Assembly: GCA_005882895.1 (NCBI GenBank)
Contig: VBBD01000028.1
Coordinates: 1 to 41,210, forward strand
Origin: Candidatus Bathyarchaeota archaeon
Lineage (GTDB): Archaea > Thermoproteota > Bathyarchaeia > 40CM-2-53-6
Length of the DNA stretch: 41,210 bases
Reading direction: 5' to 3'
Positions 1,441-2,050 of the stretch are shown in pieces (position 1 is the stretch's first letter; every line of letters begins with the position of its first letter). A program made the translations under genes and the position numbers. The notes beneath the pieces were generated by a model. The model had not been told where the DNA came from. It worked only from the letters and a program-made list of their open reading frames with translations, and ran no database searches.

Positions 1441-1584
1441 TGGCGCCGCCGACAGGGTTCGAACCTGTGACCAACGGGTTGCTACAGTGGACCTTCCACT
1501 TTAACAGCTTCAGCCTCAGCCACGAGCCGAGTCCGCTGCTCTACCACTGAGCTCGCGCCCCCAAACCTCTGAGGGAACGGCGGC
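1441..1584 (-). tRNA. tRNA-Asn(GTT) with three introns
   Basis: Removing three introns leaves a complete cloverleaf. The acceptor stem is GCCGCCG/CGGCGGC, the D stem GCTC/GAGC, the anticodon stem GCGGG/CCCGT, the loop CTGTTAA (anticodon GTT), the T stem ACAGG/CCTGT with loop TTCGAAC, then discriminator G and an encoded CCA at 1441-1443. Intron 1 (1554-1576, 23 nt) lies between T8 and A9. Intron 2 (1509-1532, 24 nt) lies between G30 and G31. Intron 3 (1480-1501, 22 nt) is at the canonical 37/38 site. Each fits bulge-helix-bulge cleavage after the second base of a 3-nt bulge. The central helices are CGCC:GGCG, CAGC:GCTG and CTGT:GTAG. Without intron removal the acceptor and anticodon stems cannot form, which supports the assignment strongly. 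Confidence 0.9.
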
Positions 1585-1651
1585 CCGCGTCTATAGCCGG
1601 CGGCAACCGACAACCGACAAGAGCCCGTTTATTAAAAGATAAGCAGAAACA

Positions 1652-1935: not shown

Positions 1936-2050
1936 GGGCCCGTAGCTCAGCTAGGTTTTCTTCAGGTTGAAGAACTGAAAGAGCGGCAGGCTCATAGCCC
2001 GAGTTCGGGAGACCTGACGGTCCCCGGTTCGAATCCGGGCGGGCCCACCA
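1936..2050 (+). tRNA. tRNA with CAT anticodon (Ile2 or elongator Met), two introns
   Basis: The acceptor stem is GGGCCCG/CGGGCCC with discriminator A and encoded CCA (2048-2050). The T arm is CCCGG-TTCGAAT-CCGGG and the D stem GCTC/GAGC. The anticodon loop after splicing is CTCATAA. A D-loop intron spans about 1957-1979; its core is a 7-bp hairpin (TTCTTCA/TGAAGAA), with a weak three-pair central helix. A second, 15-nt intron at 1997-2011 sits at the canonical 37/38 position and offers only a relaxed motif (CTC:GGG). Pair 27-43 would be G-A. The GGGCCCG acceptor resembles archaeal tRNA-Ile, so CAT is probably modified to read AUA; elongator Met is the alternative. Initiator Met is unlikely because the GGG/CCC anticodon stem is absent. 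Confidence 0.8.

Follow-up and report, generated by a model that had tools for sequence, protein, structure and literature searches.

A leader segment complementary to the tRNA 3' end accompanies acceptor-proximal introns in archaeal tRNA genes

Archaeal tRNA genes that carry an intron between positions 8 and 9 or between positions 9 and 10 were found to be preceded by a short segment complementary to their own 3' acceptor end. It is likely that this segment, located near the 5' end of the transcript, is an expendable substitute for the 5' acceptor strand that would impose splicing before 5' trimming and would have been either kept or evolved anew across Asn, Lys, Met and Thr genes, in no fewer than 12 Bathyarchaeia families and in certain other Thermoproteota. 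The evidence base consists of genome sequence, mostly from metagenome-assembled genomes, and of structure prediction.

Structure of the tRNA-Asn gene and its host genome

The gene from which this analysis started, tRNA-Asn(GTT), is located on the minus strand (1584..1441) of the window, that is, the whole 41,210-nt stretch of DNA analysed, and is composed of four exons, as established by running ARAGORN on the joined exons. Exon 1 (GCCGCCGT, 1577..1584) supplies tRNA positions 1-8 and is followed by a 23-nt intron at 8/9 (1554..1576), whose central helix CGCC (1582-1579):GGCG (1559-1556) is kept in relatives. Exon 2 (1533..1553, positions 9-30) contributes the D arm and the 5' strand of the anticodon stem; the latter is interrupted at 30/31 by a 24-nt intron (1509..1532, central helix CAGC:GCTG), and introns at this site are visible in relatives too. 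The anticodon GTT is carried by exon 3 (1502..1508, positions 31-37), which is separated by a 22-nt intron at the canonical 37/38 site (1480..1501) from exon 4 (1441..1479, positions 38-76), comprising the 3' acceptor strand at 1451-1445, G73 at 1444 and an encoded CCA at 1443-1441. The central helix of the third intron, CTGT:GTAG, includes two G.U pairs, and the GCAG found in relatives in place of GTAG turns G.U into G-C.

The joined exons (GCCGCCGTAGCTCAGTGGTAGAGCAGCGGGCTGTTAACCCGTTGGTCACAGGTTCGAACCCTGTCGGCGGCGCCA) form a perfect 75-nt tRNA-Asn(GTT) with all stems paired according to ARAGORN. Joining the exons confirmed the positions of the introns at 8/9 and inside the anticodon stem (30/31) that had been proposed in a first-pass annotation of this DNA, and its coordinates, strand, intron lengths and anticodon agree with those given above, as do its three bulge-helix-bulge (BHB) central helices with 3-nt bulges, which were verified from the sequence. 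The same annotation held that no cloverleaf can form until the three introns are removed, and ARAGORN indeed detected no intronless tRNA in the precursor; a one-intron alternative, obtained when an anticodon-loop intron was allowed, was a low-quality tRNA-Val whose anticodon stem is mismatched. A split or permuted tRNA was ruled out as well, the exons being in order and contiguous within 144 nt. The annotation's claim that the 8/9 splice motif draws on leader bases holds for this gene, where bases -2 and -1 add two outer pairs (GGGC:GCTC), but not for several relatives, which are without these pairs. Excision yields a cloverleaf with Asn identity, each junction has a BHB, and the sequence supports a real, functional-looking tRNA-Asn with three BHB introns that are predicted to be spliced. 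Neither ARAGORN nor Rfam at the gathering score called a tRNA in the window, and in a genome-wide Rfam tRNA search the Asn gene was only a partial match of 29 bits, at the cut-off.

The host genome assembly (1.97 Mb, 92 contigs, 86.6% complete), which belongs to the class Bathyarchaeia, has a visibly intron-rich tRNA set. Two sequence patterns, one of which also accepts intronless forms, found no second Asn gene in this assembly, and the gene described here is apparently the sole Asn gene of the genome. Two PF01974 paralogues of the splicing endonuclease EndA are encoded, one of them close to the catalytic subunit of Aeropyrum pernix (3p1z_B, E 1.7e-43) with the HAPF and VRK motifs kept, which we take to be active-site motifs, and the other divergent. 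As expected, this pair fits a broad-specificity (alpha-beta)2 enzyme with predicted two-subunit assembly; a two-subunit splicing endonuclease of broad specificity has been described (PMC4090602, PMC12397907).

Several other tRNA loci were noted in passing. A tRNA-Met(CAT) gene at 1936-2047 (plus strand), divergent to the adjoining Asn gene, has two introns, located in the D-arm region and at 37/38, and with neither an intron at 8-10 nor the leader element it is a natural negative control. A GGGCCCG tRNA adjoins the Asn gene, and the same pairing is seen in many relatives. Five loci hold lone tRNA-Asn 3' T-arm and acceptor pieces that lack the 5' part and resemble one another upstream; these may be attachment sites remaining from integrated elements. 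Six tRNA-Arg-like genes have a D arm (GGACAGTAGC) with an extra T relative to the usual form.

Conservation of the 8/9 intron and four-intron relatives

Comparison of related genomes, which the first-pass annotation had named as the check on conservation of the 8/9 intron, bore it out: the intron recurs in Asn genes of 20 genera from 12 families of Bathyarchaeia (one gene, L055, being read by eye). A pattern for tRNA-Asn with 0-30 extra nucleotides after position 8 matched 52 of 101 genomes, intron-containing and intronless genes alike. An unbiased class-wide search by the tRNA-Asn 3' end gave matches in 125 of 257 genomes and 110 distinct, completely readable Asn genes, of which 51 have the 8/9 intron and 59 lack it; as exact-match patterns miss divergent genes, gene counts are lower bounds. 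The loop sequence of the intron is variable and three or four of the four central pairs are kept in relatives, about one third of the distinct 8/9 splice motifs having only three. The same kind of Asn gene is present in 15 of the 17 other members of the genus, all of them incomplete assemblies. Within a phylum-wide sample, the Asn 8/9 intron was confined to Bathyarchaeia and a single genome assigned elsewhere (G479), which may be contaminated.

Six relatives yield the same tRNA only after excision of a fourth intron in the T arm, and L020 is also a four-intron gene apart from an assembly fault, as its 47-nt 'intron' contains an N and a repeated segment and is probably an assembly artefact. Another tRNA-Asn relative (L283) was judged by eye only to have four introns. 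Archaeal tRNAs with three introns are already known, and the four introns read from the sequence of several relatives exceed the published maximum of three per archaeal tRNA gene (PMC8450103).

Distribution of the leader element

The putative surrogate acceptor strand of the Asn gene is an 8-nt segment (TGCCGCCG, 1598..1605, minus strand) complementary to 1451-1444, i.e. to the 3' acceptor strand and the discriminator. Located outside 1584..1441, the segment 1605-1598 was absent from the first-pass annotation. A second GCCGCCG lies shortly upstream of each 8/9-intron gene that was read, and none precedes the first intronless gene examined. The leader score was defined as the complementarity between the last 50 nt before a gene and the tRNA 3' end (CGGCGGCGCCA); its threshold was set after the data had been seen, and the intron-containing and intronless groups barely overlap. 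A leader helix of 7-11 bp with the gene's own 3' end is present in all 51 Asn genes that have the 8/9 intron, compared with two of the 59 that lack it.

A search for GGGCCCG-type tRNAs revealed 9/10 introns in Lys(CTT), Lys(TTT) and Met(CAT) genes, including a tRNA-Lys(CTT) of the host genome itself (L311/L359, contig C14), whose leader matches its own 3' end. Among distinct Lys and Met genes with a 9/10 intron the leader helix with the own 3' end is found in 17 of 17, versus 3 of 59 comparable genes without the intron. When Asn, Lys and Met are pooled, the helix accompanies the 8/9 or 9/10 intron in 68/68 genes and occurs in 5/118 without it (Fisher p = 2e-45, relatedness uncorrected); a safer statement than this p value is that it is found in 20 of 20 genera for Asn and in independent isotypes with different sequences. 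Three of the 68 genes belong to two families outside Bathyarchaeia, and a further Asn case outside this class (L306) has a leader copy. Thr genes with an 8/9 intron have the leader in seven of seven cases (four by alignment, and L380, L381 and L385 by inspection), and one match (L372) was obtained when Phe genes were searched for introns of this kind.

The leader element is present without an 8/9 or 9/10 intron in a few genes, such as L269, L282 and L378, the last being an intronless Thr gene retrieved by a search pattern that selects such cases. L269 is intronless with an intact leader and shares its genome (G222) with an intron-bearing copy, and a related intronless gene of the same genus, L264, has what seems to be a decayed version of the L269 leader. 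Judged from these sequences, the two genes look like possible stages of intron loss followed by leader decay.

A chance effect of GC-rich sequence is disfavoured by tail swapping and by the intron-free genes of the same GC-rich tRNAs: the mean leader score is about 25 with a gene's own tail, about 13 with the tail of another isotype and about 11-12 in genes without the intron. Per-gene shuffles of the score were clear in most families and weak (p up to 0.055) in the GC-rich genus of the window. A broad pattern scan of contigs for leaders was discarded, its matches being mostly bacterial tRNA leaders hit by chance.

Specificity and position of the leader element

The exons of L381 and L385 begin with GCCTCGG, which leaves a T.G pair in the acceptor stem, and their leaders read GCCCCGG, the exact complement of the tail. 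Opposite the discriminator, the leader has T against A73 in Met genes and A against T73 in some Thr genes. Leader complementarity is 0.86 at position 73, 0.53 at 74 and 0.59 at 75, and is near chance at 76 and in the trailer (rough values, a few rows being misaligned). The isotype-specific tail pairing, the L381 and L385 leaders and the pairing into 73-75 together argue that the leader tracks the 3' end and is not a copy of the 5' strand.

A TATA-box-like element (TTTTAATA) is located at 1630..1637 on the minus strand. In 46 intron-containing genes the centre of such an element is 20-30 nt (median 28) upstream of the start of the leader helix, in contrast to a distance of 34-61 nt from the TATA element to tRNA base 1 (G1). 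As the former distance is fixed and the latter variable, the leader would lie at or near the predicted transcript start.

Proposed mechanism and predicted folding

On the evidence of sequence and folding models, it is quite likely that the leader acts as a surrogate acceptor strand, holding the 3' end and freeing the real 5' strand for splice-motif pairing with the intron. Because tRNA bases 3-6, required by the 8/9 splice motif, are also part of the acceptor stem's 5' strand, the two structures compete for the same bases. Transcription would start near 1608, and the transcript would open with the leader segment 1605-1598, which would pair with the 3' acceptor strand and discriminator, and often with CC, as an acceptor-like helix. 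The real 5' strand, kept free, would pair with the 8/9 intron to form a BHB cut by EndA, and the introns at 30/31 and 37/38 would be excised by the same enzyme. Excision of the 8/9 intron would allow the true 5' strand to replace the leader, which RNase P would then remove; as this replacement would take place only after 8/9 excision, in the proposed mechanism 8/9 splicing must precede 5' trimming. That splicing comes before 5'-end trimming had already been inferred in the first-pass annotation, and the present data would strengthen this view for a reason other than its own, since a conserved leader tracks the 3' acceptor strand in all 8/9 or 9/10 genes. The predicted order is the reverse of that in Methanopyrus kandleri, where end trimming precedes intron removal (PMC3695527), and this counts against the proposed mechanism, as do the 8/9 splice motifs with only three central pairs and the few genes that have the leader element but no such intron.

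In 50 precursors folded with their leaders by RNAfold, the true acceptor stem was predicted at 0.05 and the leader:3' strand helix at 0.82, as opposed to 0.84 and 0, respectively, without the leader. The acceptor stem reached 0.88 in intronless genes with their own leaders and 0.55 in intron genes given the leaders of intronless genes. The average cost of imposing the splice motif was 8.8 kcal/mol in the absence of a leader, 6.3 when the leader was scrambled and 5.2 when it was intact. The 8/9 splice motif is not the best structure of RNAfold and has a mean probability of 0.06; as it is not recovered, these values are relative costs only and no proof of the motif. The leader helix continues to be predicted (0.82 versus 0.08) even when the 8/9 intron has been removed. 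A hand-over by secondary-structure energy alone is not supported, the leader helix being favoured after 8/9 splicing, and since this helix is predicted to persist, the hand-over would depend on tertiary folding, on trapping by RNase P or on some other factor.

Alternative explanations

This predicted persistence of the leader helix beyond splicing is in line with a role in end processing, in which the leader would provide the 3' end with an acceptor-like helix for the action of tRNase Z, for the CCA end and for protection against exonucleases, and its help to the splice motif would be secondary. The complementarity, which passes the discriminator into CC and stops there, and the trimming of termini before splicing in M. 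kandleri (PMC3695527) also speak for such a role; however, by itself it gives no reason for keeping the real 5' strand out, and in 49 of 49 genes the splice motif is computed to be less costly with the leader. End processing as the primary function is rather unlikely, and the two roles are compatible.

It is very improbable that the leader has no function and was merely left behind when the intron was gained through a duplication of the acceptor 5' strand. The leader is identical to the exon 5' strand in many genes and L269 retains it without an intron, but it pairs with 73-75, which are not part of the 5' strand, its pairing is preserved by wobble variants, and in L381 and L385 it matches the tail and not the exon; moreover, it is retained in 68/68 genes across divergent families, against 5/118, and is decayed in the intronless L264. 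Even less credit can be given to the leader copy being the real first exon, with everything up to A9 forming one long intron. In its favour, the predicted transcript start lies near the copy, and bases 1-7 would be unchanged where the copy is exact; against this, the genes read differ in the base that follows the copy, so that most of them would lose U8, helices over 73-75 would enclose the end that has to receive the amino acid, and wobble variants would weaken the acceptor stem. That the Asn gene is a decayed pseudogene whose tRNA is supplied by another gene can be practically dismissed, because the 8/9 intron is shared by 20 genera in 12 families: standard tools miss the gene in the window and the assembly is 86.6% complete, but all stems are intact, two patterns find one Asn gene, and 15 of the 17 other genus members have the same kind of gene.

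Relation to known systems

As a surrogate acceptor strand, the leader suggests how an intron can sit where the splice motif and the acceptor stem share bases. It would also offer a simple signature for acceptor-proximal introns overlooked by tRNA finders, and leader and 5' strand would constitute a self-contained strand-exchange system, testable in vitro with known endonucleases. The four-intron genes would widen the known range of archaeal tRNA introns. No description of the leader/intron arrangement was found in a search of open-access full texts, and with this scope priority is not certain.

The multi-intron tRNAs of Pyrobaculum, Thermofilum and Caldiarchaeum likewise have short introns at canonical and noncanonical sites, 3-nt bulges around a 4-bp helix and genes for (alpha-beta)2-type endonucleases (PMC4090602, PMC3218864, PMC3293823, PMC8450103). 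In contrast to these, the 8/9 or 9/10 introns reported here go together with a leader that can pair with the 3' acceptor end, and relatives have four introns in one gene. In Thermoproteales, the noncanonical intron at 3/4 (Sugahara 2008, as cited in PMC4090602) is similarly acceptor-proximal and in conflict with the acceptor stem. The split and permuted tRNAs of Nanoarchaeum, Caldivirga and Thermofilum share the principle that extra transcribed sequence outside the tRNA pairs and sets up the splice motif, whereas here the exons are contiguous and ordered. The pairing partner of the extra strand is in this case the mature 3' end, and its predicted fate is to be lost together with the leader.
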